NCBI GenBank assembly: GCA_947259575.1
Contig: CAMYMU010000047.1
Location: 1 to 64,000, forward strand
Reading direction: 5' to 3'
DNA from: an uncultured Ectothiorhodospiraceae bacterium
GTDB lineage: Bacteria; Pseudomonadota; Gammaproteobacteria; UBA6429; Thiohalophilaceae
DNA: 64,000 nucleotides
Shown one piece after another: positions 8,515 to 64,000 of this stretch. Made by a program: the position numbers and the translations under genes. Under the pieces are notes generated by a model, which made no database searches, was not told where the DNA came from, and saw only the letters and a list, made by a program, of their open reading frames with translations. Positions within the stretch are counted from its first letter, which is position 1; the number at the start of each line of letters is the position of its first letter.

Positions 8515-9801
8515 ATGCTATCAACACAAAAGAATAATAAAAACACCGACGATGATAAAGCAGGCCACCGAATTCATGCTGCATTTAATGAAATTCGAGC
8601 CGATTCAGAAAAAATTTGTCTTCCATTAGCCGTCGAGGACTATGGTATTCAAACGATGCCTGATGTCAGTCCACCCAAGTGGCATCTGGCTCATACTAGC
8701 TGGTTTTTTGAAACCTTTATTCTCAAACCCTTTCTTTCTGATTTTAAAAGCTTTGATCCCTTATATGCACACCTGTTTAATTCATATTATGAACAGGCAG
8801 GTACTTTTCACCCACGACCCGAACGGGGATTACTTTCCAGACCCACCGTGGATGAAGTTTACGACTATCGTCGCTATATAAACTACTACATGCTCGATCT
8901 ATTGGATGATGAGCATCATCCAGAACAGCAGGAGATTCTGCGTCGCACAGAAATTGGTGTCAATCATGAACAACAGCATCAAGAACTCATGTTGACAGAT
9001 ATAAAAAATATTTTTGCGTATAACCCGCTCAAGCCAGTCTATAAAGAATTGGATCTGCCCCCGCAAACAGTTGTGCCAGAGTTAAATTGGCATGCGCAGC
9101 CGGCAGGCATTTACGAGATCGGTCAAAGCAAGGATGGGTTTGCCTACGACAATGAATTTCCTCGCCATAAGGTTTATCTGGAACCGTTTCGTATTGCCTC
9201 GCGCTTAACTACTAACAAAGAGTATCTCGAGTTTATAGAAGCAGGGGGTTATCAGAACCCGGCACTATGGTTATCGGATGGGTGGAAGGCAATACAAATT
9301 CAAAACTGGTGCGCACCATTGTACTGGGAAAATATAAATGCTGAGTGGCATGAAATGACCCTGGCTGGGTTGCGTCCACTTGACTTAAATGCACCGGTAT
9401 CTCATGTCAGCTTTTACGAGGCAAATGCGTTTGCTAACTGGAAAAACAAGCGTCTGCCCACTGAAATGGAGTGGGAGGTGATTGCAAACGATCTTGAGAT
9501 TACCGGTAACTTTCGTGACATCGACTACTTGCAACCTATTTCGACCAGCGATGAAGCATTAACCCAATTTTATGGTGATGTTTGGGAGTGGACTCAGTCC
9601 AGTTATACGCCTTATCCAGGTTATCACGCTGCCGAAGGCGCACTGGGTGAATATAACGGTAAGTTTATGAGTAGCCAGATGGTATTACGCGGCGGCTCGT
9701 GTTTTACGCCGCAAAACCATATACGCGCCAGTTATCGTAATTTCTTTTACCCCGGTGACCGCTGGCAGGTGTCCGGTATCCGACTTGCGGAGACAATCTA
9801 A
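8515..9801 (+). CDS. egtB: Ergothioneine sulfoxide synthase EgtB
   Basis: A mononuclear non-haem iron enzyme that joins a sulfur donor to hercynine (trimethylhistidine) to make the sulfoxide precursor of ergothioneine. The N-terminal DinB-like domain carries the iron-binding H-x3-H-x-E motif at 151-157 and an additional candidate histidine in PPKWHLAHTSWF near 57-60. A C-terminal formylglycine-generating-enzyme-like domain runs from about residue 195 to the end, with GDVWEWTQSSY and VLRGGSCFTP. Length (428) is normal. The stop overlaps the egtD start (TAATG), so the pair forms one operon. Confidence 0.93.
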   Translation: MLSTQKNNKNTDDDKAGHRIHAAFNEIRADSEKICLPLAVEDYGIQTMPDVSPPKWHLAHTSWFFETFILKPFLSDFKSFDPLYAHLFNSYYEQAGTFHPRPERGLLSRPTVDEVYDYRRYINYYMLDLLDDEHHPEQQEILRRTEIGVNHEQQHQELMLTDIKNIFAYNPLKPVYKELDLPPQTVVPELNWHAQPAGIYEIGQSKDGFAYDNEFPRHKVYLEPFRIASRLTTNKEYLEFIEAGGYQNPALWLSDGWKAIQIQNWCAPLYWENINAEWHEMTLAGLRPLDLNAPVSHVSFYEANAFANWKNKRLPTEMEWEVIANDLEITGNFRDIDYLQPISTSDEALTQFYGDVWEWTQSSYTPYPGYHAAEGALGEYNGKFMSSQMVLRGGSCFTPQNHIRASYRNFFYPGDRWQVSGIRLAETI

Positions 9802-10793
9802 TGGCAGAGAATCAGAGCGTATTGACCTCAACAGATAATGAAATACAGTTTTATGATTTTCATCCCAAGATGTCGGATTTTTATTCCGAGGTTGTCGAAG
9901 GTTTAAAGACGGAGCCTAAAAAAATACCGCCCAAGTTTTTTTACGATGAAACGGGTTCACGTTTATTTGAACAGATCTGTCAGTTACCTGAATATTATCC
10001 AACGCGCACTGAGCAACAAATACTGGAAGACAATGCCAGCTCGATAGCGCAAATTATTGGTGACCACCATTATGTAATCGAACCTGGTTGTGGCAGCTGC
10101 GAAAAAATAAAACTTTTATTAGATACCCTTAAACCCGAAGCCTATGTGCCCATGGATATCTCTAAGGAGTTTTTACAGGAATCAGCACAAGCAGTCTCAG
10201 ATGAATTTCCGTGGTTAGATGTACACGCCGCCTGTGTAGACTTTACCGAACCAATGGAACTTCCCTTTTGTCCGGATGAAGCGCGTAAACTAGCTTTTTT
10301 TCCAGGCTCAAGTATCGGTAACTTTGAGCCCAGCCTGGCACAAAAATTTATGCAGCACGTGCTGAATCTGGTTGGACCTGGAGGAGGGATACTGATTGGC
10401 GTCGATCTGAAAAAAGACGAGCAAATACTTAACGATGCGTATAATGATAATGCCGGAGTGACCGCAGACTTTAACCTAAATCTATTGGCACGCATTAATT
10501 CAGAACTGGATGCAAACTTTGAGCTGGAACATTTTGATCATCATGCCTTTTACAACGCCGATGTCGGCCGTATAGAAATGCATCTAGTTAGTCAGAAACC
10601 GCAGCAAATAAAAATCGGCGAGCATCTCATTTCATTTGAAAGCGGTGAGACTATTCATACCGAAAGTTCCTATAAATATACGATTAAAGAGTTTCAGTCA
10701 CTGGGCCACAAAGCAGGGTTTAATCCGATTAAAGTCTGGACCGATCAGGATGACCGGTTTAGTGTGCATTATTTTGAGGTACCTCAAGCTTAG
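9801..10793 (+). CDS. egtD: L-histidine N-alpha-methyltransferase EgtD
   Basis: Uses S-adenosylmethionine to trimethylate histidine to hercynine, the first step of ergothioneine synthesis. The 330-residue protein shows the family entry motif PKFFYDETGSRLFEQICQLPEYYPTR in separate conserved pieces (KFFYDETGS, LPEYYPTRTE), the SAM-binding loop EPGCGS near residue 94, and FFPGSSIGNFEP near 173. It overlaps egtB by one base. No egtA, egtC or egtE is nearby; the enzyme pair may suffice if EgtB uses cysteine and a general lyase finishes the reaction, which is an inference. Confidence 0.93.
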   Translation: MAENQSVLTSTDNEIQFYDFHPKMSDFYSEVVEGLKTEPKKIPPKFFYDETGSRLFEQICQLPEYYPTRTEQQILEDNASSIAQIIGDHHYVIEPGCGSCEKIKLLLDTLKPEAYVPMDISKEFLQESAQAVSDEFPWLDVHAACVDFTEPMELPFCPDEARKLAFFPGSSIGNFEPSLAQKFMQHVLNLVGPGGGILIGVDLKKDEQILNDAYNDNAGVTADFNLNLLARINSELDANFELEHFDHHAFYNADVGRIEMHLVSQKPQQIKIGEHLISFESGETIHTESSYKYTIKEFQSLGHKAGFNPIKVWTDQDDRFSVHYFEVPQA

Positions 10794-50305: not shown

Positions 50306-52069
50306 ATGGAAACTCAAGTCATGTCAAAAAAAATAGATTACCCGAAAGGCGTAGTATTTAACGCTTATCCTGACAGTATTGGTCAGAATCTGGCTGATAT
50401 AGTCTCTATGCTAAAGAGACCGGAATTCGAAGATGTTTTTTCTTTGTTCTACATCCTGCCTACCATTTTTAATAGTGATCTGGATCGCGGTTTTTCTATC
50501 ATAGATTATGATCTCAATAGCGAGCTTGTGTCCCGGGAGGATCTGGAGCAACTGCATGAGCTTAATGTGATGTTTAAGTTTGATCTCGTGTTGAACCACC
50601 TGTCTGTGGGTTCTCCCCAGTTTCAGGATCTATTGAAGCGTGGGGACAAATCTAAATATAAGGACTTCTTTATTAATTGGAATGAATTTTGGGGTCCGCA
50701 TGGAGAGTTGAGCTCTGATGGTCATGTGATACCATTTGACGAACATCTAGATAAACTTTTTATGCGAAAACCCGGACTGCCGATATTGAAAGTACGCTTT
50801 CCGGATGGGACAGACAGGCCTTATTGGAATACATTTTATCAGGAAGTTATATACCATGAGGTTACTGCCCATGATCTCCTACATTCATTAGGCATCGAAG
50901 AACTGACCCACGATGATGCAGAACACATTTCAGCAATTTTGAATGATATATTAAATGCGAAGCGGGATCTGAGCGAGATAGATCTGGGTGATTTTTCCCA
51001 TCACAAGGATGATATTGTTACCCTTGTTGAGCAGAATCGTAGATACCTTGGGCAAATGGATTTAAACGCTCAATCACAAGAGGTCTGGGATTTTTACGAT
51101 GAAACGTTAAAGAAGCTGCGTGATCATGGTGGTAAGCTCGTCAGGCTTGATGCCTTTGCCTATTTACATAAGGAACCGGGTGAGGCCAATTTTTTCAATA
51201 AACCTGGCACCTGGGAGTATCTGGATAGACTCAAACAGATAGCCAATGAGTATGATTTGATTCTTCTACCTGAAATACATTCTGAGTATGGTAATGGGCT
51301 GCATGAGGAAGTGGCTGCCAAAGGATTTCCTATCTACGATTTCTTCTTTCCCGGCCTGGTTATTCATGCTCTGGAACGAGGTACAAACCGACATCTTCTA
51401 AAATGGATTGGCGAGATACTGGAAAAGAAGATCAAGACAATTAACATGCTTGGCTGTCACGATGGTATCCCTGTGCTTGATCTACGAGGTAAGGATGATA
51501 CCGGTAAGTCACGTGAAGGACTAATAATTGAAGAAGAAATTGACGCACTCGTCGATGAGATAATGGACAGGGGGGGTAGAGTTAAAAACCTGTATGGCCC
51601 GGATGGCAAGAAAATATCGTATTACCAGGTAAATGCGACCTTCTTTAGCGCACTGGGTGAAGACGAACGAAAGTTACGCCTTGCTCGGGCAATTCAAATG
51701 TTTATGCCGGGGATACCTCAAGTATGGTATCTGGATCTGTTTGCCGGCAAAAACGATTACGCAGCGGCGGACAAAGGTGGACCGGCCGGGCACAAGGAAA
51801 TCAATCGTACCACGTTGACCAATAGTGATATTGAACAAGGGCTTTCTCGAATTATTGTGCGAGACCAGCTGGAGCTTATTAGGCTACGCAACAAATCCCC
51901 CGCATTTGATGGTGAATTGGAGATCCACGATTCTGATGAGCATATCTTGGAACTAAGCTGGAGAAACAATGGTTGTGTGGCGACACTCTCTGCCGACTTG
52001 AAAGGGTACGGCTTTAGCGTTACCCATGAGGGTGAAGGATATGTTGAGTTTGTTACATTGTATCGATGA
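50306..52069 (+). CDS. GH13_18-type sucrose / glucosylglycerate phosphorylase-like protein
   Basis: A 587-residue alpha-amylase-superfamily enzyme. The catalytic triad is visible: nucleophile Asp282 in VRLDAFAY, acid/base Glu323 in LLPEIHSEYG, and Asp386 in LGCHDGIPVLDLRG, the pattern of sucrose phosphorylase and relatives. Substrate candidates are sucrose, sucrose-6'-phosphate, glucosylglycerol and glucosylglycerate. Residues about 183-258 form an acidic insertion that makes the protein longer than usual (about 490-500). AGAGG precedes the ATG. It is followed 44 bases later by a sucrose-phosphatase-like gene. Confidence 0.85.
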   Translation: METQVMSKKIDYPKGVVFNAYPDSIGQNLADIVSMLKRPEFEDVFSLFYILPTIFNSDLDRGFSIIDYDLNSELVSREDLEQLHELNVMFKFDLVLNHLSVGSPQFQDLLKRGDKSKYKDFFINWNEFWGPHGELSSDGHVIPFDEHLDKLFMRKPGLPILKVRFPDGTDRPYWNTFYQEVIYHEVTAHDLLHSLGIEELTHDDAEHISAILNDILNAKRDLSEIDLGDFSHHKDDIVTLVEQNRRYLGQMDLNAQSQEVWDFYDETLKKLRDHGGKLVRLDAFAYLHKEPGEANFFNKPGTWEYLDRLKQIANEYDLILLPEIHSEYGNGLHEEVAAKGFPIYDFFFPGLVIHALERGTNRHLLKWIGEILEKKIKTINMLGCHDGIPVLDLRGKDDTGKSREGLIIEEEIDALVDEIMDRGGRVKNLYGPDGKKISYYQVNATFFSALGEDERKLRLARAIQMFMPGIPQVWYLDLFAGKNDYAAADKGGPAGHKEINRTTLTNSDIEQGLSRIIVRDQLELIRLRNKSPAFDGELEIHDSDEHILELSWRNNGCVATLSADLKGYGFSVTHEGEGYVEFVTLYR

Positions 52070-52113
52070 TGGACAATTCAGCGCTGATGATGACTTTCCC
52101 AAGGAGTTAATTA

Positions 52114-52920
52114 ATGAAAATACTTGCTACAGATTTGGACAGAACTCTGTTGCCGAATGGCAGTTGGGAGAGTGATAGGGAAGCGATCAGTCTGTTTAAT
52201 AACCTGACAGAAAAACACGACGTGCTCGTTGTTTATGTAACAGGACGCAATCTGGCCCTTACCGAGAATGCGATAAAAGAATTTGGGGTCCGACACCCGA
52301 ATATTCTCTGCGGTGACGTCGGCACTTCGATTAGAAAATATGAGAATGGTGAGTGGCAGTTTGATGATGGTTGGGTTAATCATGTCAAGAAGGAGAGTCC
52401 ACGGTGGGATGCCATGGCGATAAGAGATGCCGTTGTCGGGATTGATGGTATGCGGGAACAGGAAAGTGAACATCAAAACCAGTTCAAGCAAAGTTATTAT
52501 GTTGAACATGAAAAAAATGTACAGGTGTTAAAAAGAGTTGATGAACGGGTAAAGGGAAAGTTTGATGAAGTCATCGTATACAGTTTTGATTCACAGGATG
52601 GCAAAGGGCTTCTTGATTTTTTGCCTGCTAGTGCGACAAAACAAACAGCCTTGGAGTTTGTGGTTGAAGAGTTCGGTGCTGCGAAAGAGGATGTTGTATT
52701 TTGCGGAGACAGCGGGAACGATATATTTCCTCTGACAGCAGGTTTCTGCGGTGTACTTGTAAAGAATGCCGATGACCAATTGGTAGATAATGTAAAAAAG
52801 GCAATGAATCATAATCCTGAATTGCAAGTATATTTCGCAAAAGGGGATTTCAAGGGTTTGAATGGATATTATACTAGCGGTGTAATTGAAGGGGCATATC
52901 ATTATGGGGTGTTTGATTAG
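52114..52920 (+). CDS. HAD-family sucrose-phosphatase-like protein
   Basis: A 268-residue HAD subfamily IIB phosphatase resembling sucrose-6-phosphate phosphatase. Motif I is LATDLDRTLLPNG (Asp7, Asp9), motif II lies in YVTGRNLAL near 46, and motif III/IV in CGDSGNDIFPL near 207-217. The cap domain resembles the SPP branch. AAGGAG seven bases before the ATG is ideal. With the neighbouring phosphorylase it suggests turnover of a sugar-phosphate or compatible solute, although the synthase is now a remnant. Confidence 0.82.
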   Translation: MKILATDLDRTLLPNGSWESDREAISLFNNLTEKHDVLVVYVTGRNLALTENAIKEFGVRHPNILCGDVGTSIRKYENGEWQFDDGWVNHVKKESPRWDAMAIRDAVVGIDGMREQESEHQNQFKQSYYVEHEKNVQVLKRVDERVKGKFDEVIVYSFDSQDGKGLLDFLPASATKQTALEFVVEEFGAAKEDVVFCGDSGNDIFPLTAGFCGVLVKNADDQLVDNVKKAMNHNPELQVYFAKGDFKGLNGYYTSGVIEGAYHYGVFD

Positions 52921-53086: not shown

Positions 53087-53515
53087 TTAAGGACGCCAAT
53101 ATTTATAGCCCTGCATTTGAAGGCGGATCACTTCAGGAGCGCCAGCAGGAACAAACTCGACCTCCAACGGAAATTCGTCTTCTTTAAGATTCCAGGCTCT
53201 CATACTGATCCGGCATGCTTTGAAAACAACGCCCCGATTAGCCAATTTAGTTAAAAGCTGTGATGTTTCTTTGTTGTTTGCTAACAAGGCTTGAATCCCA
53301 TTTTCATAGGCAACAACTTCTATTTTTAACTTCTTTTCACCGATATCGTTTAACACCTTATCAATTTGAAGAAAGGCACGTCGATGACCGTAGTTGTCAC
53401 CAGTACGTGTTAACTGCATAACAAACGGAACAGGATTATCTTCAGCCGCTATAAGTAAACCAGACGTAGATAAAATAATTGTCAGTGCGAGTAGTGTAAA
53501 AAGTTTAAGTTTCAT
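53087..53515 (-). CDS. Periplasmic DsrE-family protein
   Basis: A 142-residue DsrE/F-like protein with a signal peptide (about 23 residues, cleavage after LLIAA). The DsrE fold pattern is RRAFLQIDKVLNDIGEKKLKIEVVAYENGIQALL in pieces near 45-78, and a conserved cysteine, Cys101, lies in GVVFKACRISMRAW where cytoplasmic DsrE/TusD carry their sulfur-relay cysteine. This suggests persulfide carriage or sensing outside the cytoplasm. It overlaps the MFS gene by four bases and is the last gene of the PDO-MFS-DsrE operon. Confidence 0.82.
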   Translation of the reverse strand: MKLKLFTLLALTIILSTSGLLIAAEDNPVPFVMQLTRTGDNYGHRRAFLQIDKVLNDIGEKKLKIEVVAYENGIQALLANNKETSQLLTKLANRGVVFKACRISMRAWNLKEDEFPLEVEFVPAGAPEVIRLQMQGYKYWRP

Positions 53516-54819
53516 TCTAAACTTTGCCCCTCTTTAGGATTAAGTCTTGGATGGGTTTCCTCGGCAAACATAAGTACCAGGAGTCCCGAGACAAACATGG
53601 AAATAGTCACGAACCAGAATCCTGTGCTAATTAAACCAGAAAAATTGGAGACAAGCCCTAACAACAGCGCTCCAATACCATAACCCAGATCGCGCCAGAA
53701 TCGATAGATCCCGATGGCTGAACCACGCCAGGCAGGGTGAGCAATATCACCCACTGCGGCGCTGATATTTGGATACAGCAATGCCATACCAAAGCCAGTA
53801 ATTGCGGCCGAGATAGACCACCAAAGCAGTGTATCGCCCAATAAGGTCAACCCTACTCCGGCACCACAGACCCACATACCGATAATGATCGGCCATAGTC
53901 GTCCGACATGATCGGATAGCTTACCGGTTAAAAACTGTGAACCGCCCCAGACAAAGCCATAGATACCCACTACCCAGCCAATATTCGCCAAGCTAAGACC
54001 TTGCTGGTATAAAAACACCGGATAAAACACCCAAATTAAGGCATCGACAAATTTCTCAACCAGCCCCGCCTGGCTAAAGGCGAACATGCGTTTATCGCGC
54101 CATGACATCAGGGTAAATACTTCCCAGGTTGTCGGTTTGTTTGAGATATTAGTTGGAAAACGCGGTGTGGGTCCAGTTGCTGTGCCCGCTGCATGTTGAT
54201 CGGCTTCTGCCTGGGCCCATGGCAGTGTTTCCTTAATCCAAAACTGGGTTGTAACAATAGCAGCAACAACCGTAACTAAACCAAACCACATTAGCCCTTC
54301 ACGCGCACCCAGCCATTCTGATAAATAACCTGTAAGAATACCTGCAACTGCAACACCAAAATATCCAGAGAACTCATTTAACCCTATAGTAAAACCACGC
54401 TGTTCTGGGTGAGTAAGATCGAGTTTAGCTGTTTGAGTCATTGACCAGGTTAGCCCCTGATTAACACCCAACAGAACGGTTGCCATCACAATCCAGTTCC
54501 AACTAGGCGCATGCATAATCATTGGCGGAATGGGAATCGCGATTATCCAACCCAGCATCAAAACATGTTTGCGCCCTATTCTTTCTGATAAGCGTCCTGC
54601 AACAAAATTTAATGTACCTTTAACAAAACCAAATGCAACGACAAAGGCCATGAGCAACAAGAATGAACCTTTAGGAACACCAAACTCACTTTCAGCAAGC
54701 GCAGGGATCACTGTACGCATCATGCCCAGGGTTAGACCCACGAGTAAGACTTGCCACAATTGGTGGGCAAACTGATGCGCGTTTACGCGGATACCAAAAT
54801 GATATTCCTGTTCTTTCAT
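53512..54819 (-). CDS. MFS transporter in a persulfide operon
   Basis: A 435-residue inner-membrane carrier of the major facilitator superfamily with about twelve transmembrane segments. The loop 2-3 motif appears as AGRLSERIGRKHVLM near 74-88, repeated as TGKLSDHVGRLWPII in the second half. The substrate is unknown. Its placement between a persulfide dioxygenase and a DsrE-like protein suggests an oxidised sulfur compound or thiol, by inference. It starts 12 bases after the dioxygenase stop. Confidence 0.85.
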   Translation of the reverse strand: MKEQEYHFGIRVNAHQFAHQLWQVLLVGLTLGMMRTVIPALAESEFGVPKGSFLLLMAFVVAFGFVKGTLNFVAGRLSERIGRKHVLMLGWIIAIPIPPMIMHAPSWNWIVMATVLLGVNQGLTWSMTQTAKLDLTHPEQRGFTIGLNEFSGYFGVAVAGILTGYLSEWLGAREGLMWFGLVTVVAAIVTTQFWIKETLPWAQAEADQHAAGTATGPTPRFPTNISNKPTTWEVFTLMSWRDKRMFAFSQAGLVEKFVDALIWVFYPVFLYQQGLSLANIGWVVGIYGFVWGGSQFLTGKLSDHVGRLWPIIIGMWVCGAGVGLTLLGDTLLWWSISAAITGFGMALLYPNISAAVGDIAHPAWRGSAIGIYRFWRDLGYGIGALLLGLVSNFSGLISTGFWFVTISMFVSGLLVLMFAEETHPRLNPKEGQSLE

Positions 54820-54831
54820 TAAATCTTTCGC

Positions 54832-55560
54832 TTATGCTTTTATGTTTGCCGCAACGATTTTGTCCATCTCGGCTGGGCGTGGTGGAATTTCTTTAGTGAG
54901 CAGCTGCACAAACTCATCTTTATCAGTGACGCTTAGCATTGGGTTAAAGCGTTTTTCAAATCCCAAGGTGGAAACAGGCTTACCGGAAATACCGGCACCA
55001 CAAACACTACCTGCCTGGTGGGCTGGATAAATCTCTGTGGTATCCGGAAAGCTTAGTAATTTAGTATGCAGTGTATCGAATAACATTCCGGCCATTTCTT
55101 TTTCGCGACCTGCCAGGTCAGGCCGACCAATGCTACCAACAAATAGGGTGTCACCAGTTAGCAAAAACCAGGGTTCTTCACTACGACGATTATCGGACAC
55201 AGCTAGACTAATACTGTCCATGGTGTGACCAGGGGTGTAAATTACCCTCACCTTCACATTACCCACATCGATTACATCACCATCATTCAAGGGCTCAAAT
55301 TCGAACTCTGGGCTGGCATCCTTATATAAACAATATTTAGCGCCGAGACGCTCAGCCAGAGCGCGCCCACCCGAATAATGATCAGCATGCACGTGGGTTT
55401 CTAGTACATGGGTTATGGAGACGTTCTGAGCCTCGGCCTGCTCCACAAACCAGTCTTCATCGCCCGCGACAACATCAACGGCGATAGCCTTTCCTAGCGA
55501 GCCACATCCTAACAGATACGATAACGATGCCTCTTTTGTCGCTAACTGCTTGAAAAACAT
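54832..55560 (-). CDS. Persulfide dioxygenase-like metallo-beta-lactamase protein
   Basis: A 242-residue MBL-fold protein of the ETHE1/persulfide dioxygenase type, which oxidises glutathione persulfide to sulfite. Metal-binding THVHADHYSGG lies at 55-65 (His56, His58, Asp60, His61), and further motifs are TPGHTMDSIS near 118, LTGDTLFVGSIGRPDL near 143-158 and IYPAHQAGSVCGAG near 187-200. A single iron is expected. There is no rhodanese domain. GGAG lies seven bases before the ATG. It is the first gene of the operon and diverges from the ArsR regulator. Confidence 0.9.
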   Translation of the reverse strand: MFFKQLATKEASLSYLLGCGSLGKAIAVDVVAGDEDWFVEQAEAQNVSITHVLETHVHADHYSGGRALAERLGAKYCLYKDASPEFEFEPLNDGDVIDVGNVKVRVIYTPGHTMDSISLAVSDNRRSEEPWFLLTGDTLFVGSIGRPDLAGREKEMAGMLFDTLHTKLLSFPDTTEIYPAHQAGSVCGAGISGKPVSTLGFEKRFNPMLSVTDKDEFVQLLTKEIPPRPAEMDKIVAANIKA

Positions 55561-55610
55561 AGTTTATCTCCTATATTTGGCTGTTGACATTAGTCGCAAT
55601 TCAGCTCATT

Positions 55611-55630
55611 ATATGCGTAGATACTCATAT
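55611..55630. promoter_or_regulatory. Imperfect palindrome in the PDO-arsR divergent region, operator candidate
   Basis: ATATG (55611-55615) and CATAT (55626-55630) flank a ten-base spacer, in the 92-base gap between the dioxygenase and the regulator. A second pairing, TATGCG (55612-55617) with CGCATA (55640-55645), shares the same left arm. Either could be the binding site of the ArsR protein controlling both directions. Confidence 0.5.
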
Positions 55631-55652
55631 GAACAAGTGCGCATACGATTAA

Positions 55653-55970
55653 ATGAAGACTAACGAATTACCAATAGAACAGCTATCCAGGATATTGAAG
55701 ATACTAAGTGAGCCTAACCGCCTTCGAATTCTGTGCAGTATGGGGCTAGAGTGTGTACCCGTATCAGCCATCATTGCTAAAACTGGGCTTTCGCAGACGA
55801 ACGTTTCGTTTCACCTGCGTGTTATGCGAGAGGCAGGTATCGTTAAAGGTGAAAAGAACGGTGCCTTTGTTTTTTACTGCCTATACGACTACTCCATTAT
55901 TGATTTGCTAAAGAATCTCGCAGACTGGGGTAACTCAAACAAGCAGCTTGTCGATAAAGCGCAAGCCTGA
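55653..55970 (+). CDS. ArsR-family regulator, candidate persulfide sensor
   Basis: A 105-residue winged-helix repressor. Family features are SEPNRLRILCSMGL near 19-32, the recognition helix KTGLSQTNVSFHLRVMREAGIV near 43-64 (in pieces), and the wing GEKNGAFVFYCLYDY near 66-80. Cysteines are Cys28, Cys34 and Cys76. In the BigR/SqrR persulfide sensors one regulatory cysteine sits in the equivalent RLxILC position, but the second, near the C-terminus, has no counterpart here. Divergent from the PDO-MFS-DsrE operon. Confidence 0.85.
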   Translation: MKTNELPIEQLSRILKILSEPNRLRILCSMGLECVPVSAIIAKTGLSQTNVSFHLRVMREAGIVKGEKNGAFVFYCLYDYSIIDLLKNLADWGNSNKQLVDKAQA

Positions 55971-57574: not shown

Positions 57575-59389
57575 TTAATGCGAATCAGGTACCACACCGG
57601 TTTGCGGCATGTCTGCAAGGCCTGTTTCGCGGGCATGTTCTTCAAAACCTTTATTACGCCAGAAAAATGCGCCGGGCATGGTTGTTGGTATGACTAATAC
57701 ATAAAACAGGGCTCGACCAATCAACGCTGCAGTCATAATTAAGGCTAAGGACAACACACCAAGGGCCAGGAAGGCTTCATGCGTTGCACCTAACAGATAA
57801 ATAGCGCTAACAACTGAAATGCTGGCCAGGAGTGCGATATTTCGTAACCAGTAGCTTTTTCCATATTTGGTAGTTTGTTCGAAATGTGAAAGCGCACCTT
57901 CGTGCTGTGCAGATTTCATATCACGCGCATGCGTAACTAACCCAATCAATTCTATAGCCAGACCTGCAATCACGATTAAACTGGTAATTTCAATCAACGC
58001 TGCAGACGCTGACACACCATTACTAATCACACCAACGGTAACAACCAGGATACCGCCCAGACTCAATGTTGTACCAATAAAGCTTGATGCGGTTTGCCAG
58101 TGATCCCAATAAGGCCTGGCCGGGATGCGGTACAACTTGTACATGTAATATGTACCGATAACACTGCCCAGGACTGCTACCACGGCTGAGGCATTCATCA
58201 TGAATGTCGCAAAACTGTTTTCGAATAAACTAAAAAAACCGTAGCCTGACAGGCCTGCAAAAAACATTGAGACACCAGCGATTTCTCGACTGACCGGCGA
58301 ATAGCGCAAATTATTAAAACCTCTATAAAATCTGTGAGGCCGGCCAAGGTGTAGATTCAGCTTCAACAGACCAAAACTCATTAAAATAAAGGTTACGATT
58401 AGTAGTGGCCATTTTGCTGTAGTTGTTAGCACTGATAAAGCTTCCACGCCTAGATACTGACTACACAGTAATAGTAAAAATGCACCCATTACCGTCTGTG
58501 CACTCAAGGTAAAGGCGATGTGTGCATTTTCGTGTGATGACAGTAATTTTTTAAGATTCCAGCTCTTTTTAGTATTTGCACGATTCTCATTAATAACAGG
58601 GACATAGGCATCTTTGTTATCATTTAATCGATATTTAACATCGATTGAATCTGTGCGCGACATCTCCTTCGGCAACGTCTTCGTTTGCTGGAAGCGAATA
58701 TTCGGATGTGAAATCTCTGGTGTTGGAAATCCTGGAATCTGGGTCTTAAGTTGTTCACGATTCTCTGGTGTTGTTTCGGTTACACCAAAATCCAGCGCAC
58801 CGGCTAAACAAGCGGAAGCACACGCAGGTTTCAAACCAACTTCCAGGCGATCAACGCACATATTACATTTATGCACGTGTCCTTTTTCGGTATCGAGTTG
58901 TGGCGCATTGTAGGGGCAAACCCATGTGCAATAACCACAACCAAAACATATATCAGGATCTTGAAGAACTGCACCATATTCGGCGTACTTTGTATACGCA
59001 CGTGTCGGACAGCCTTTAAGACAAACAGGGTCGTCACAGTGGTTACATGCCATCGATATATTTAAGCGGGTATAATTAGGAAAAGTTCCACCTTCAACAT
59101 ACCCCACCGATCGATAAGCCAGATATGGCGGTAAATCATTTTTCTCACTGCAAGCCGATTCACATGCATGACAAGAAATACAATTATCTGCATTAAAATA
59201 AAAACCGTGCTGCTTATAACGATTCGGGTTTTCACCAACTCCTGCATCATTATTAATATTTAAGCTTTCGCCTAAAAGGGCATTATCCTGTGCAGCCAGA
59301 TCAATTTTCTCACCATATCGATTGCGCTCAGGTGCTGCTGTGTCAGGAAGAAATGCGTATTTTGGTTCGTCGTCTCTTATTTTGTACAT
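57575..59389 (-). CDS. Fused DmsB-DmsC-like iron-sulfur/membrane protein of the nitrate reductase operon
   Basis: A 604-residue protein uniting two subunits that are usually separate. Residues 60-200 hold four [4Fe-4S] ligand groups: Cys70/73/76/80, Cys115/118/123/127, Cys148/151/154/158 and Cys175/178/190/194. Residues from about 290 to 585 carry eight or so transmembrane segments of the DmsC/NrfD-like type, which bind quinol. The start at 59389 is one base after the nasA stop; an earlier in-frame start overlaps nasA. It could pass quinol electrons to NasA. Last gene of the operon. Confidence 0.85.
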   Translation of the reverse strand: MYKIRDDEPKYAFLPDTAAPERNRYGEKIDLAAQDNALLGESLNINNDAGVGENPNRYKQHGFYFNADNCISCHACESACSEKNDLPPYLAYRSVGYVEGGTFPNYTRLNISMACNHCDDPVCLKGCPTRAYTKYAEYGAVLQDPDICFGCGYCTWVCPYNAPQLDTEKGHVHKCNMCVDRLEVGLKPACASACLAGALDFGVTETTPENREQLKTQIPGFPTPEISHPNIRFQQTKTLPKEMSRTDSIDVKYRLNDNKDAYVPVINENRANTKKSWNLKKLLSSHENAHIAFTLSAQTVMGAFLLLLCSQYLGVEALSVLTTTAKWPLLIVTFILMSFGLLKLNLHLGRPHRFYRGFNNLRYSPVSREIAGVSMFFAGLSGYGFFSLFENSFATFMMNASAVVAVLGSVIGTYYMYKLYRIPARPYWDHWQTASSFIGTTLSLGGILVVTVGVISNGVSASAALIEITSLIVIAGLAIELIGLVTHARDMKSAQHEGALSHFEQTTKYGKSYWLRNIALLASISVVSAIYLLGATHEAFLALGVLSLALIMTAALIGRALFYVLVIPTTMPGAFFWRNKGFEEHARETGLADMPQTGVVPDSH

Positions 59390-59390
59390 A

Positions 59391-61571
59391 TTAAAATCCA
59401 CGCGCTTCTTTGTTGCGAAGCGCTGCACTTTGTTGATCATTTGCTAATTCAATTTTGACTGCGCATTGTTTAAAAGCAGGCTGCCTGGAATGTGGGTCAA
59501 GCAAGCCAAGGGATAAGCGATTAACACAATCATGAAAATGGAATGGTATAAATACCATGTTAGGCGAAACGCGTTGTGTAAGTTGCACCATCACCACGGC
59601 ATCGCCGCGCCTAGAGGTAAGGCGCGCATATTGGCCATGAGCAATACCCAGTGCTTTGGCTGCGTCAGGATTCATTTCCATGTAGGGTGTTGGGCTAAAC
59701 TTGTTAATATTACCAACCTTGCCGGTACGTGTCCGGGTATGAAAGTGTTCAACCACACGGCCGCTATTCATCCAGAAAGGATACTCGTCATCCGGGCGTT
59801 CATTATTATCGATAAATGGTAACGGCATTAACTTTGCCTTACCATCTGGATATTGAAATTTACCGTCGGTATATAAACGCTGCAAGCCCTTTTCATCACC
59901 ATCTTTACAGGGCCATTGAATACCCCGCTGCGCTTCAATCTTGTCATAGGTCATGCCAGAATAATCCAGCATGCGACCTTTGGAGAGTTCTCGTAATTCA
60001 TCAAATACACCTGATGATGTTTCTGGGAATTTAACCTTTTGCCCTTGCTCGAATCGCTTGGCCATTTGATTAAAGATCCACAAATCAGGTTTTGAGTCGG
60101 CGTATGGTTTTATGACATTACGTATCAGGTTTACACGACGCTCGGTATTGGTAAAACAGCCTTCTTTTTCAGCCCAGACACCTGCGGGAAAATACACGTT
60201 CGCATATTGGTTAGATTCACAATCCTGGTATGCATCCTGGACCACAAGAAAATCCAATTTTTCAAACGTTTTACGAATCCGATCGGTATTGCTCATTGAA
60301 GTCATTGGATTGGTCGCGATAATCCAGAGCCCTTTAATTTGCCCAGTTTCGATTGCAGGGAAAATGTCGGTCTGGAACAAACCACGTTTTTTGGGGAAAA
60401 ACTCTTTATCAACTCCCCAGAAGTTTGCAATCGTCTCTCGGTCTTCCTCTTTTTCAAGCGTGCGATATCCTGGCAGCCCTGAACACGAAGACCATTCTCT
60501 TGTACCCATCGCATTGCACTGTCCGGTAATCGACAGACTAGTGCCACCCGGCTTGCCGATATTGCCGGTAATTAAATTCAAGTTGTTGATCCCGCAAACG
60601 CCATCGGAGCCATGAGTCGATTGATTAATACCCATGGTCCAGATAGTCATAGCAGCACCTGCTTTAGCATAAGTACGCGCTACGTTTCTAATCGTGTCTT
60701 CGTCGATACCACAAATTTTAGAAGCCGTTACCGGATCATATTGCTCTATGACCTTATAAAATTCTTCATCATTATTAGTATGTGCCTCAATATATTCTTT
60801 ATCAGCCAGCCCTTCCTCAAGAATGACATACGCAAGACTATTCAATAAGGCTAAATCAGTGCCCGGTGTAACCGGTAAATGAATATCGGCCATTTGCGCC
60901 ATCATGGTAACCCGTGGGTCAACTACAATTACGGGGAATTTACGTTTTTCCAACGCCTGTTTTAAACGCCAGAAAATAATGGGATGTTGTTCAGGTAAAT
61001 TTGATCCTATCGCTAGCAAACACTCTGTGTGCTCAAAATCCTCATAGCACCCTGGAGGGCCATCTGATCCAAAGGAACGTTTATAGCCTGATACAGCTGA
61101 TGACATACAAAGTGTTGTATTACCATCATAGTTATTTGTTCCAATAACACCACGCGCAAGTTTTCCAAGCGTGTAGAATTCTTCTGTCATTATCTGGCCG
61201 GTAGAGACAATAGCGAAGGCATCACGACCATAAGTCGTTTGAATACGTTTTATCTCATCGGCCGTTTTGTCAAGCGCGGTGTCCCAGTCGGTTTTTTGAA
61301 ACGGCTCATAAAACTTGTCACGAATCAGTGGCGTTTCACCTCGCCCTTCTAATTTGAAGAGCTCGTGCTCGTAAATTCCCTTTAAGCAGAGTTTGCCGCG
61401 ATTCACATCAGCACTTGCCACCCCACGCGTTGCAACGGCTTCACCCTTTTCATCTAAACCGACTTCAATCGAACAACCTGTTGAGCAATAACCACAAGTT
61501 GTGTACTTCCAGTCAACAACACCCTTGTCAGCAATTTTAATCGGATTTTTTTGCTTACGACCAAACAACAT
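59391..61571 (-). CDS. nasA: Assimilatory nitrate reductase catalytic subunit
   Basis: A 726-residue molybdopterin oxidoreductase that reduces nitrate to nitrite. The N-terminal [4Fe-4S] ligands are Cys26, Cys29, Cys33 and Cys62; the molybdenum-ligand Cys155 is in NTTLCMSSAV; ATNPMTSMSNTD and GVWAEKEGCFTNTERR are typical of the NasA/NarB group. There is no Tat signal, consistent with a cytoplasmic enzyme. The length is close to cyanobacterial NarB and shorter than Klebsiella NasA, because it lacks the C-terminal [2Fe-2S] domain. Confidence 0.93.
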   Translation of the reverse strand: MLFGRKQKNPIKIADKGVVDWKYTTCGYCSTGCSIEVGLDEKGEAVATRGVASADVNRGKLCLKGIYEHELFKLEGRGETPLIRDKFYEPFQKTDWDTALDKTADEIKRIQTTYGRDAFAIVSTGQIMTEEFYTLGKLARGVIGTNNYDGNTTLCMSSAVSGYKRSFGSDGPPGCYEDFEHTECLLAIGSNLPEQHPIIFWRLKQALEKRKFPVIVVDPRVTMMAQMADIHLPVTPGTDLALLNSLAYVILEEGLADKEYIEAHTNNDEEFYKVIEQYDPVTASKICGIDEDTIRNVARTYAKAGAAMTIWTMGINQSTHGSDGVCGINNLNLITGNIGKPGGTSLSITGQCNAMGTREWSSCSGLPGYRTLEKEEDRETIANFWGVDKEFFPKKRGLFQTDIFPAIETGQIKGLWIIATNPMTSMSNTDRIRKTFEKLDFLVVQDAYQDCESNQYANVYFPAGVWAEKEGCFTNTERRVNLIRNVIKPYADSKPDLWIFNQMAKRFEQGQKVKFPETSSGVFDELRELSKGRMLDYSGMTYDKIEAQRGIQWPCKDGDEKGLQRLYTDGKFQYPDGKAKLMPLPFIDNNERPDDEYPFWMNSGRVVEHFHTRTRTGKVGNINKFSPTPYMEMNPDAAKALGIAHGQYARLTSRRGDAVVMVQLTQRVSPNMVFIPFHFHDCVNRLSLGLLDPHSRQPAFKQCAVKIELANDQQSAALRNKEARGF

Positions 61572-61586
61572 AGTTCATTTTCCTAT

Positions 61587-61922
61587 CTATTGATTAGGAC
61601 ATCCTTCATTAGGCTTTAATGACAACATAATCTTGTTGCCTTCCATCTTAACCGGGTAAGTCGCCGCACAGCCTTCATCAGGCGCCACAGCGGTACCGGT
61701 ATCAAGTTGAATTTTCCAGTCATGTAACGGGCATGCGACGCGATCACCATGTACAATACCCTGCGAAAGCGGACCCTGCTTATGCGGGCATTCATCTTTT
61801 ATCGCGAACACCTTGTCTTCCGCTGTCCTAAATACAGCGATATTACCATTATCAGAGGTCACAACACGTGCGCCTAACTGTGGAATATCATTTAGTGTTC
61901 CTATTTCAATCCAGTCACTCAT
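61587..61922 (-). CDS. nirD: Nitrite reductase small subunit NirD with full Rieske site
   Basis: A 111-residue Rieske-fold subunit of assimilatory NADH-nitrite reductase. The ligands Cys45-x-His47 and Cys64-x2-His67 are all present (DECPHKQG and VACPLHDW), so it should bind a [2Fe-2S] cluster. In E. coli NirD these are lost. It lies between nirB and nasA, 20 bases after nirB and 15 before nasA. Confidence 0.92.
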   Translation of the reverse strand: MSDWIEIGTLNDIPQLGARVVTSDNGNIAVFRTAEDKVFAIKDECPHKQGPLSQGIVHGDRVACPLHDWKIQLDTGTAVAPDEGCAATYPVKMEGNKIMLSLKPNEGCPNQ

Positions 61923-61942
61923 TGATTTATAACCTATAACTA

Positions 61943-64000
61943 TTATGCGTTGATTTGCTTGATGGCATTAAATTCATGTTGCTGTGCACCGTTCGCACGT
62001 GCTTCCCATGGATCATCTTGCATGAATTGTTGTGAATAATGGAAGCGTTCGGCTAACTGCTTACGATTTTCTGCATCATCAACAATATTCTCCTTGATAT
62101 GCGTTAAACCAACACGCTCAATCCAGGGTGCGGTACGTTCAAGATAATGCGCCTCTTCTCTATAGAGCTGAATATACGCAGCGCTATATTCCATTGCTTC
62201 TTCTTCTGTGGTAACAGCGCACAAGAAATCTGTTGCGCGGACTTTGATACCTCCATTACCACCGACATGCAGCTCATATCCTGAATCAACACAAACAACG
62301 CCAAAATCTTTAATAGTCGCCTCAGCACAATTGCGAGGACAACCAGAGACAGCCAACTTGAACTTGTGTGGCATCCATGAGCCCCAGGTCATTTTCTCTA
62401 ACTCAACCCCGAGATGTGTTGAGTCTTGCGTACCAAAACGACACCATTCCTTACCGACACAGGTCTTGACCGTACGTAAAGCTTTACCATAAGCATGCCC
62501 AGATACCATGCCGGCATCATTTAAATCTTTCCAAATAACCGGTAACTCTTCTTTCTTTAGTCCATAAAGGCCGATACGCTGACCACCCGTTACGTGAACG
62601 GTTTTAATGTTGAACTTTTCAGCAGCATCAGCAATAGCGCGCAACTCATCAGGCGTAGTACCACCCCCCCACATGCGAGGAATAACTGAATAGGTACCAT
62701 CTTTTTGAATGTTTGCGTGTGCACGTTCATTGATGAAGCGTGATTGCGCATCATCCGCACTGTGTGTTTCAGGCCACTGGCAAACCATGTAATAGTTCAA
62801 CGCAGTACGACATTTAGGGCAGCCATCTGATGTTTTCCATTCCATAAATTGCTGTAGCTCGCGAATTGATTTGAAGTTCTTATCGCGAATAACCGCTCTG
62901 ACTTCATCATGCGTATGGTCAGTACAAGCACAAATTGGTTTTAAATGTGGCGCAACTGAATAGTCGCCACCAACAGTGTGCGCCAACAAAGCTTCAACCA
63001 GGCCAGTACATGAACCACATGAGCTTGAAGCCTTGGTATGTGCACGCACATCATCCAGAGTAAACAATTTCTTTTCGGTAATCGCAGAAACAATGTCACC
63101 TTTACAAACACCATTACAGCCGCAAATTTCTGCCGTATCTGACATGCTGGCAACACGATTATCATCACCGTGACCAGAATCACCTAAATGAGCCTGACCA
63201 AATAAGATCGTTGAGCGAAAATCTGTTATATCTGTTTGGTCGCGCATTAAATCGAAATACCAGGTACCATCGATGGTGTCGCCATACATCACGGTGCCTT
63301 TTATTTTGTTATCCTGGACAACGATTTTGCGATAGACGCCTGAAGCAGCATCTTGAAAAACCAGTTCCTCGGTTGTGTCATCGCCAGTGAAATCACCAGC
63401 CGAAAACAAATCAATTCCCGTCACTTTCAATTTAGTAGAGGTAACCGATCCTTCATAACGGCCGATACCATGTTTAGCCAGGTGATTGGCACAGACTTTA
63501 CCCATTTCGAATAAAGGTGCGACCAGACCATAGGTTTCATTTCTATGTTGAACGCACTCGCCGACTGCGTATACGCGTGGGTCGAAAGTTTGCATCGTGT
63601 CATTAACAACAATACCACGCTCACAATGTATTCCGACTTTCTCAGCAAGTGCGATATTTGGACGAATACCTACTGCCATAATAACAATATCGGCATCGAC
63701 GGAGCTGCCGTCTTTAAAACATACTTTCTCAACCCGGTCTTTACCTTCGATGGATGCTGTTTGTGCACCCATTAAAAATTCCATTCCCCGTTCTTCTAGT
63801 GATGTCCTCAGCATTTTTGCCGCAGGTTCATCTAACTGTCGTTCCATCAAGGTATCCATGATATGTACAACTTTTACACTCATACCTTGTTGCATCAGAC
63901 CATTAGCTGCTTCCAGCCCTAGTAATCCGCCGCCGATAACAACTGCCTTCTTATATTTACCTGCAGCCTCAAGCATGGCATCGACATCAGCGATGTCACG
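61943..64000 (-). CDS. nirB: Nitrite reductase large subunit NirB, 5' truncated by window edge
   Basis: The frame stays open to the last base, adding RDIADVDA before the first internal ATG at 63976, so the real start is outside the window; roughly the first 130 residues are missing. Visible parts are the FAD/NAD fold (VVIGGGLLGLEAA), two BFD-like [2Fe-2S] regions (CGCNGVCKGDIV...CGSCTG and CACTDHTHDE...CPKCR), and the siroheme-[4Fe-4S] site (CVGKEWCRFG and CPRNCAEATIKD). It reduces nitrite to ammonium with NAD(P)H. First visible gene of the nirB-nirD-nasA operon. Confidence 0.95.
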   Translation of the reverse strand, partial: RDIADVDAMLEAAGKYKKAVVIGGGLLGLEAANGLMQQGMSVKVVHIMDTLMERQLDEPAAKMLRTSLEERGMEFLMGAQTASIEGKDRVEKVCFKDGSSVDADIVIMAVGIRPNIALAEKVGIHCERGIVVNDTMQTFDPRVYAVGECVQHRNETYGLVAPLFEMGKVCANHLAKHGIGRYEGSVTSTKLKVTGIDLFSAGDFTGDDTTEELVFQDAASGVYRKIVVQDNKIKGTVMYGDTIDGTWYFDLMRDQTDITDFRSTILFGQAHLGDSGHGDDNRVASMSDTAEICGCNGVCKGDIVSAITEKKLFTLDDVRAHTKASSSCGSCTGLVEALLAHTVGGDYSVAPHLKPICACTDHTHDEVRAVIRDKNFKSIRELQQFMEWKTSDGCPKCRTALNYYMVCQWPETHSADDAQSRFINERAHANIQKDGTYSVIPRMWGGGTTPDELRAIADAAEKFNIKTVHVTGGQRIGLYGLKKEELPVIWKDLNDAGMVSGHAYGKALRTVKTCVGKEWCRFGTQDSTHLGVELEKMTWGSWMPHKFKLAVSGCPRNCAEATIKDFGVVCVDSGYELHVGGNGGIKVRATDFLCAVTTEEEAMEYSAAYIQLYREEAHYLERTAPWIERVGLTHIKENIVDDAENRKQLAERFHYSQQFMQDDPWEARANGAQQHEFNAIKQINA

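Follow-up and report, generated by a model that had tools for sequence, protein, structure and literature searches.

What does a transporter do whose gene stands between one for a persulfide dioxygenase (PDO) and one for an exported-looking protein that resembles a sulfur carrier? The question is raised by positions 53087 to 55970 of the 64,000-nucleotide stretch of contig CAMYMU010000047.1 of an uncultured Ectothiorhodospiraceae bacterium that was analysed here (the window). The preliminary description of this locus had read a divergent ArsR gene facing a PDO gene, a major facilitator superfamily (MFS) transporter gene and a gene for an exported DsrE-domain protein. All four genes were found in their places with every family confirmed by Pfam above its gathering score (HTH_5, 1.9e-10; Lactamase_B, 4.3e-13; MFS_1, 1.1e-45; DsrE PF02635, 4.1e-12), and the 12-nt gap between PDO and MFS genes and the 4-nt overlap (ATGA) of MFS and DsrE genes were recovered from the coordinates of the open reading frames (ORFs). 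It was found that PDO and MFS are a real, conserved pair, and that this core recurs in many bacteria and haloarchaea. For the locus as a whole, we give a probability of about one half to an ArsR-controlled operon for the oxidation and detoxification of sulfane sulfur (persulfide), equipped with an anion-moving MFS protein and a periplasmic carrier. The host, a 3.45-Mb draft genome with the operon on contig C47, carries SoxB above cut-off elsewhere and DsrA above cut-off on the operon's own contig at 107-108 kb, close to the contig end; it is therefore a sulfur oxidiser by gene content.

The dioxygenase and transporter pair

The PDO gene (54832 to 55560, minus strand) encodes a protein of 242 amino acids (aa) with a metallo-beta-lactamase (MBL) fold and without a rhodanese domain. 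Its best solved relatives by sequence include CstB/Blh-type and PDO proteins (3tp9, 3r2u, 9rhq and 4ysb, down to ETHE1, 4chl). It has the THxHxDH, His and Asp metal-site motifs of the family, and the motif residues H56, H58, D60, H61, H112, D137, R146 and H181 are identical in no fewer than 33 of the 34 sequences compared, the window's among them; the iron-site motifs comprise H56, H58, D60 and H61, H112 and D137. Because of the solved relatives and the conserved metal-site motifs, persulfide dioxygenase is a good name for the predicted function. The protein perhaps belongs to the SdoS/type III group (PMC5584763, PMC6335251). SdoS has been reported from the genera Sulfuricella and Sulfuriferula (PMC5584763; PMC12285272), and the PDO relatives at L033 (Sulfuricella) and L026 (Sulfuriferula) are 65% and 70% identical, respectively. 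Two more PDO-like genes in the host genome are distant (31% and 35%), and plasmid cstB matches are ~37% identical to the window PDO.

The occurrence of the pair was followed with the MFS protein alone as query (53512 to 54819, minus strand; 435 aa). Matches were obtained in 8 of 40 genomes of a family sample and 18 of 369 of a class sample, own genome included in both, together with 34 loci in named genomes. Among the 16 class-level matches outside the family, 15 were taken in and G399 was excluded, as it shares its genus with G306; L023, L024 and L025, which agree in length or place with L013, L014 and L018, were not counted. Besides the window, this gave 53 loci. In 51 of them the MFS is at least 47% identical, and 47 of these 51 have at least 800 nt upstream, which makes them assessable. 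The Bacteroidota loci L055 and L056 (MFS 33-36%, PDO not found) were excluded from the percentages, and L029, L037, L050 and L053 (<800 nt upstream; L037 shows a partial PDO) from the PDO assessment.

PDO lies directly upstream of MFS on the same strand in 34 of the 47 assessable loci, with a rate of 31/40 where the MFS is at least 60% identical and 3/7 below 60%. The hosts of MFS loci include Sulfuricella, Sulfuriferula, Thiogranum, Gallionellales and Hydrogenophilaceae. An ArsR-type gene was found within 3.8 kb upstream in 28 of the 34 paired loci, 21 of them ArsR-rhodanese and 7 short ArsR; the remaining six, with none found upstream, are L014, L031, L040, L042, L045 and L051.

Plasmids were also searched with the MFS protein (1e-50), which matched 99 records, and 21 regions, chosen to spread over taxa, were examined. 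PDO is directly upstream of MFS in 14 of these regions, which belong to Alpha-, Beta- and Gammaproteobacteria, Acidithiobacillia, Deinococcota (Deinococcus) and six haloarchaea; the Frigidibacter pair (L134), counted among the 14, is shortened amid insertion elements. In four others, an MBL/PDO gene is in the cluster without being directly upstream: Leptospirillum (Nitrospirota, L136), Thiothrix (L138), Arthrobacter (Actinomycetota, L148, taken from annotation) and Halolamina (L154). No PDO was found beside MFS in the last three of the 21, L137, L142 and L143; in the latter two, the sole PDO-like gene is distant and on the opposite strand. In the six haloarchaeal regions, the protein upstream of MFS has a weak rhodanese-like match (38-44 bits) ahead of its PDO part. 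Of the module as first described, the pair of PDO and MFS is thus borne out by both the loci and the plasmid regions, and the ArsR-type regulator by the loci.

Sulfur carriers around the transporter

The preliminary description had added a sulfur carrier to this module. Carriers were counted in 48 loci with an MFS of >45% identity and at least 1.5 kb downstream, using family-checked seed sequences (for TauE, the seed was identified by eye, and a few counts come from fragments of one gene, L043). A DsrE-domain gene lies within -3.0 to +5.5 kb of the MFS start in 21/48 loci, in 16 of them within ~1 kb after MFS. An exported-type rhodanese is near MFS in 11/48 loci, 10 after and 1 before, with a leader seen in three sequences of the type, and a cytoplasmic-type rhodanese in 6/48. 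For comparison, 21 hand-picked genomes (~65 Mb) hold 170 PF02635 matches, and therefore a chance occurrence is expected in ~2% of 8.5-kb stretches. Three cytoplasmic-looking DsrE types without leader and two rhodanese types are met near MFS, in addition to the exported-looking DsrE of the window. With some DsrE-domain or rhodanese gene in 29/48 loci, a carrier near MFS is therefore common, though not orthologous. Further sulfur genes around MFS are ArsR-rhodanese, TauE and an SQR-like FAD (flavin adenine dinucleotide) protein. As a separate observation, a ~106-aa protein without Pfam match recurs near MFS (L015:10880-11197) and is fused, by eye, to an apparent O-acetylhomoserine sulfhydrylase at L033:9720-11207.

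These carriers would also suit the opposite direction of transport. MFS would then import a sulfane-sulfur compound (thiosulfate, organic persulfide or polysulfide) that arises or is caught in the periplasm; a periplasmic rhodanese or the window DsrE would hand the compound over, and a cytoplasmic DsrE or rhodanese would pass it on to PDO. The leader-type rhodanese genes beside MFS and the neighbouring DsrE-domain genes fit such a route, as do genes of the YeeE family, a family of thiosulfate uptake proteins, near MFS in Halobacterium and Halolamina. Tetrathionate is split in the periplasm. In keeping with uptake, deletion of sdo1, a gene of the SdoS group with a dsrE-like gene downstream, ended growth of Acidithiobacillus caldus on tetrathionate (PMC5584763). 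The ArsR-type repressors, however, and the chrA, mer and ars genes found among some plasmid neighbours of MFS suit detoxification better than uptake, and we consider import unlikely.

In the window, the carrier is a DsrE-like protein of 142 aa (53087 to 53515, minus strand). It passed the PF02635 test with 46.7 bits (gathering score 22.7), and its hydrophobic N-terminus was read by eye, in the window and in relatives, as a Sec-type leader. The conserved cysteine of the preliminary description was confirmed: it is the protein's single one, Cys101 in ACRISM, is kept in 15/15 subfamily rows covering the stretch, and has a cysteine of MTH1491 and ST0148 as its counterpart in the alignment. The protein had no match among NCBIfam models, and no second DsrE-domain protein was found among the neighbours scanned, so that the adjacent dsrF and dsrH of a DsrEFH set are missing there.

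Members of this subfamily occur in 13/369 genomes of the class and 8/40 of the family (own genome in both), which together with the Gallionellales locus L041 makes 20 other genomes. Only at L041 is the gene (59% identity) near PDO-MFS, ~1.8 kb upstream of MFS and before ArsR-rhodanese. Four genomes have both genes apart, at 71 kb in G058, at ~22 kb in G029 and on different contigs in G031 and G032, and in the other 15 no match to MFS passed the thresholds applied. In the same-genus genomes G031 and G032, the DsrE gene follows an ArgE-like gene (named by eye). At the second copy in G222 (L098), it is broken into two ORFs. In the family, 8/40 genomes carry DsrE, 8/40 carry MFS and 4 carry both; in the class, the figures are 13/369, 18/369 and 2. 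The family-level co-occurrence is a weak excess which relatedness could explain. Plasmids searched at 1e-15 yielded no relative of the window DsrE.

As a core partner in the PDO-MFS module, in which the preliminary description had placed it, the DsrE protein was rejected, since its subfamily stands elsewhere in 19 of the 20 other genomes. The neighbourhood of PDO, MFS and DsrE proposed there as a check therefore came out divided: the pairing recurs and some carrier gene is frequent, whereas the window's own DsrE subfamily does not belong to it. The simplest reading is that DsrE appears to have joined the operon in the window's lineage. It is possible, if doubtful, that the gene is a bystander that landed behind MFS with no functional tie, which is compatible with any of the other readings. 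Its usual place elsewhere, on another contig even in two same-genus genomes, and the AT-richer composition of its stretch (~39% G+C vs 44-50% for the mfs windows) agree with a bystander, while the ATGA overlap suggests coupled translation, the Gallionellales locus is a second case, and DsrE-domain genes are common near MFS. Two further observations concern DsrE: a CcdA/DsbD-like membrane protein (by eye) is encoded near the subfamily's gene in L127 and L098, and a DsrE-like paralogue of 32% identity lies beside another SoxB-like gene, whose score is weaker (320 bits, under the cut-off), at G000:C5:25941-28021 (L121, L002).

Regulator, transporter and a proposed mechanism

The ArsR/SmtB-family repressor gene (55653 to 55970, plus strand; 105 aa) is divergent from pdo-mfs-dsrE. 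The protein passes the general metalloregulator model NF033788, while the TsoR and BigR models of NCBIfam stay below cut-off (44.4 bits against 155 for BigR). In the short ArsR group (10 rows), Cys34 and Cys76 are invariant and Cys28 is present in 6/10; the latter we take, from ungapped alignment spans and the HlyU numbering, to be the matching first sensor position. No Cys follows residue 76 in any of the 10 rows, and at the second sensor position the window protein has Asn94. In known persulfide sensors, a distance of 66 residues separates the two cysteines, as with 42/108 in BigR and 50/116 in sHdrR (PMC5823870, PMC12423496), and many ArsR-type regulators adjoining sulfur genes are without the two (PMC12423496). 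The structure model (predicted local distance difference test, pLDDT, 85) places Cys34 immediately ahead of a short strand formed by residues 35-36, and Cys76 within the strand of residues 72-77. In winged-helix proteins, these strands pair in one sheet; a Cys34-Cys76 switch is put forward as a hypothesis.

Between arsR and pdo lies a 24-bp palindrome, TCATATGAGTATCTACGCATATAA (55609 to 55632), a candidate ArsR operator that is conserved in relatives. On the minus strand (pdo side), it overlaps a TATAAT read by eye at 55608-55613, and on the plus strand (arsR side) a -10-like CATTAT at 55607-55612. Its consensus is expected to match 0.05 times in the window. In the host genome, the palindrome is unique at up to 1 mismatch, with one further place at 2 mismatches (G000:C46:75835-75857). 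In all 8 loci with short divergent ArsR, the window and 7/7 relatives of the same layout, the best site departs from the consensus at 0-3 of 18 positions, a fit that was never reached in 500 mononucleotide shuffles per locus; it is partly circular, because the consensus was written from the window and the same relatives. Promoter and terminator scans did not rise above shuffles.

Many other loci have an ArsR-rhodanese fusion as their regulator. Both rhodanese-loop cysteines are kept in 28/28 ArsR-rhodanese ORFs of the fetched loci (e.g. L043:3989-4681), and this regulator may be a sulfane-sulfur carrier in its own right. A search of the open-licence literature found no paper that links TsoR with ArsR, nor one on a transcriptional regulator of ArsR and rhodanese domains in sulfur oxidation.

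The folds closest to the ArsR model are CzrA and SmtB, with BigR and SqrR lower in the list. Together with the metalloregulator match, this could be taken to mean that ArsR senses a thiophilic metal, that the substrate exported by MFS is a metal-thiol or metalloid species and that PDO merely keeps the thiols clean. The arsenic, chromate and mercury genes on plasmids point the same way, and so does the DsrE subfamily, which stands directly beside MerR-like genes (by eye) at five loci (L093, L095, L098, L127 and L129). Such a metal module is nevertheless quite improbable, given that PDO, rhodanese, DsrE-domain and SQR-like genes recur beside MFS (chromosomal neighbours being annotated in part) and that the ArsR-rhodanese ORFs without exception retain their loop cysteines.

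As for the transporter, 12 transmembrane helices were read from its structure model. Of NCBIfam, 17 models matched the protein and none reached its cut-off; no solved chain matched it by sequence at 1e-5; and the structure search brought up numerous unspecific matches (VMAT2, NorA, G6PT, OxlT and others), so a named identity for the MFS was dropped. Viral contigs, when searched, held no relative. A set of 32 sequences of 47-100% identity keeps R35, K67, N71, Q121, D134, N148, E149, R173, Q250, K256, D259, Q295, D303, R307, D358, R365, R373, R376 and D377. In the model (pLDDT 89), the invariant K67, E149, K256, D259, R373, R376 and D377 appear inside helices, and an anion substrate is suggested by the basic residues among them, K67, K256, R373 and R376.

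For the favoured persulfide operon, the following mechanism can be proposed. ArsR would repress both arsR and pdo-mfs-dsrE through the palindrome, and reactive sulfur species would lift the repression, perhaps by modifying Cys34/Cys76. In the cytoplasm, PDO would oxidise glutathione persulfide to sulfite. MFS would then move a small sulfur anion over the inner membrane, most likely outward, in the place that TauE holds in the bigR operon. The anion would be sulfite, or thiosulfate formed from sulfite, and could serve the Sox system in the periplasm. The exported-looking DsrE-like protein, apparently added late, may handle periplasmic sulfane sulfur via Cys101.

Several findings weigh against this mechanism. 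PDO is not directly upstream of MFS in 13/47 loci: in ten of these none was detected (L035, L049, which holds just 853 nt upstream, L052, L054, L102, L105-L108 and L112), and therefore MFS can exist without PDO; at L103 and L104 the PDO, 0.4 kb upstream of MFS, is a distant one (29-30%), and L113 has a rhodanese gene between PDO and MFS. A TauE-family gene lies within 7 kb of MFS in 6/48 loci, in one on the other strand, and TauE also occurs in three plasmid regions with MFS. MFS is therefore not simply a TauE substitute, and at those loci export could be left to TauE, as import by MFS would have it; no TauE was found among ten proteins scanned around the window operon. Moreover, ArsR is without the known persulfide-sensing cysteine pair of SqrR/BigR/SoxR/HlyU, and the structure matches of MFS scatter over unlike substrates.

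A broader proposal can be made tentatively, at somewhat under even odds: the PDO-linked MFS proteins would form one family of transporters for sulfur anions (sulfite, thiosulfate or low-molecular persulfide) in bacteria and haloarchaea, plasmid-borne with PDO, and the short ArsR would be a new reactive-sulfur sensor in which a Cys34-Cys76 pair in the winged-helix sheet replaces the known pair.

Other genes of the window deserve mention. At 57575-63976, a molybdopterin oxidoreductase of 726 aa (best NCBIfam matches Fdh-alpha and NasC, below cut-off) is overlapped by the gene of a 621-aa fusion of Fe-S subunit and DmsC-like anchor, which adjoins a 677-aa NirB-like ORF (by eye); this is perhaps an unusual membrane-linked nitrate assimilation set. 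Neighbouring egtB- and egtD-like genes (ergothioneine synthesis, by eye) lie at 8515-10793, and a sucrose-phosphorylase-like gene followed by a sucrose-phosphate-phosphatase-like gene, below NCBIfam cut-offs, at 50306-52920.

Relation to known systems

PDO generates toxic sulfite, then thiosulfate, inside the cell. In Beggiatoa, thiosulfate probably reaches the periplasm via unknown transporter proteins (PMC11507549). As its gene accompanies that of PDO in several phyla and in haloarchaea, the MFS transporter is a concrete, testable candidate. If the cysteine pair of ArsR is the sensor, it would constitute a second persulfide-sensing design in the ArsR family. In the open-licence literature, no paper was found that joins persulfide dioxygenase, DsrE and MFS transporter, and none that uses the term 'periplasmic DsrE'.

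With the DsrEFH/TusBCD relay, the window shares a DsrE domain with conserved cysteine, whereas its protein is single and exported-looking, with no second DsrE-domain gene beside it. The cst operon of Staphylococcus (CstR, CstA, CstB) has the same persulfide-detoxification logic, and the window PDO is a relative of CstB; unlike the window, that operon has a CsoR-family regulator and a CstB with rhodanese domains. The SdoS/type III locus of A. caldus has a dioxygenase of the chemolithotroph group, to which the window PDO perhaps belongs, and a dsrE-like gene downstream (sdo1 A5904_0421 and A5904_0418; PMC5584763, where the SdoS group is defined).

A cluster of sulfur dioxygenase and MFS is already in print, since the SUL module of Antarctic Arthrobacter plasmids, described in 2018, comprises sulfur dioxygenase, rhodaneses, TauE and MFS (PMC6305408). 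Its MFS is 41% identical to that of the window and is assigned no function in the accessible part of that paper; the module has its own features in a CsoR-family regulator, the presence of TauE and a PDO that does not adjoin MFS. Closest in layout is the bigR operon of Xylella and Agrobacterium, which consists of the ArsR-type repressor BigR, the Blh dioxygenase and a TauE-related sulfite transporter (PMC5823870). In both, genes for an ArsR-family repressor, an MBL-fold sulfur dioxygenase and a membrane transporter are adjacent. The window differs in having MFS in place of TauE, a PDO without fused sulfurtransferase, an ArsR without the Cys42/Cys108-type pair and an extra exported-looking DsrE. 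The window operon is thus laid out like the bigR operon, with a regulator that fails the BigR test and a transporter of another family.

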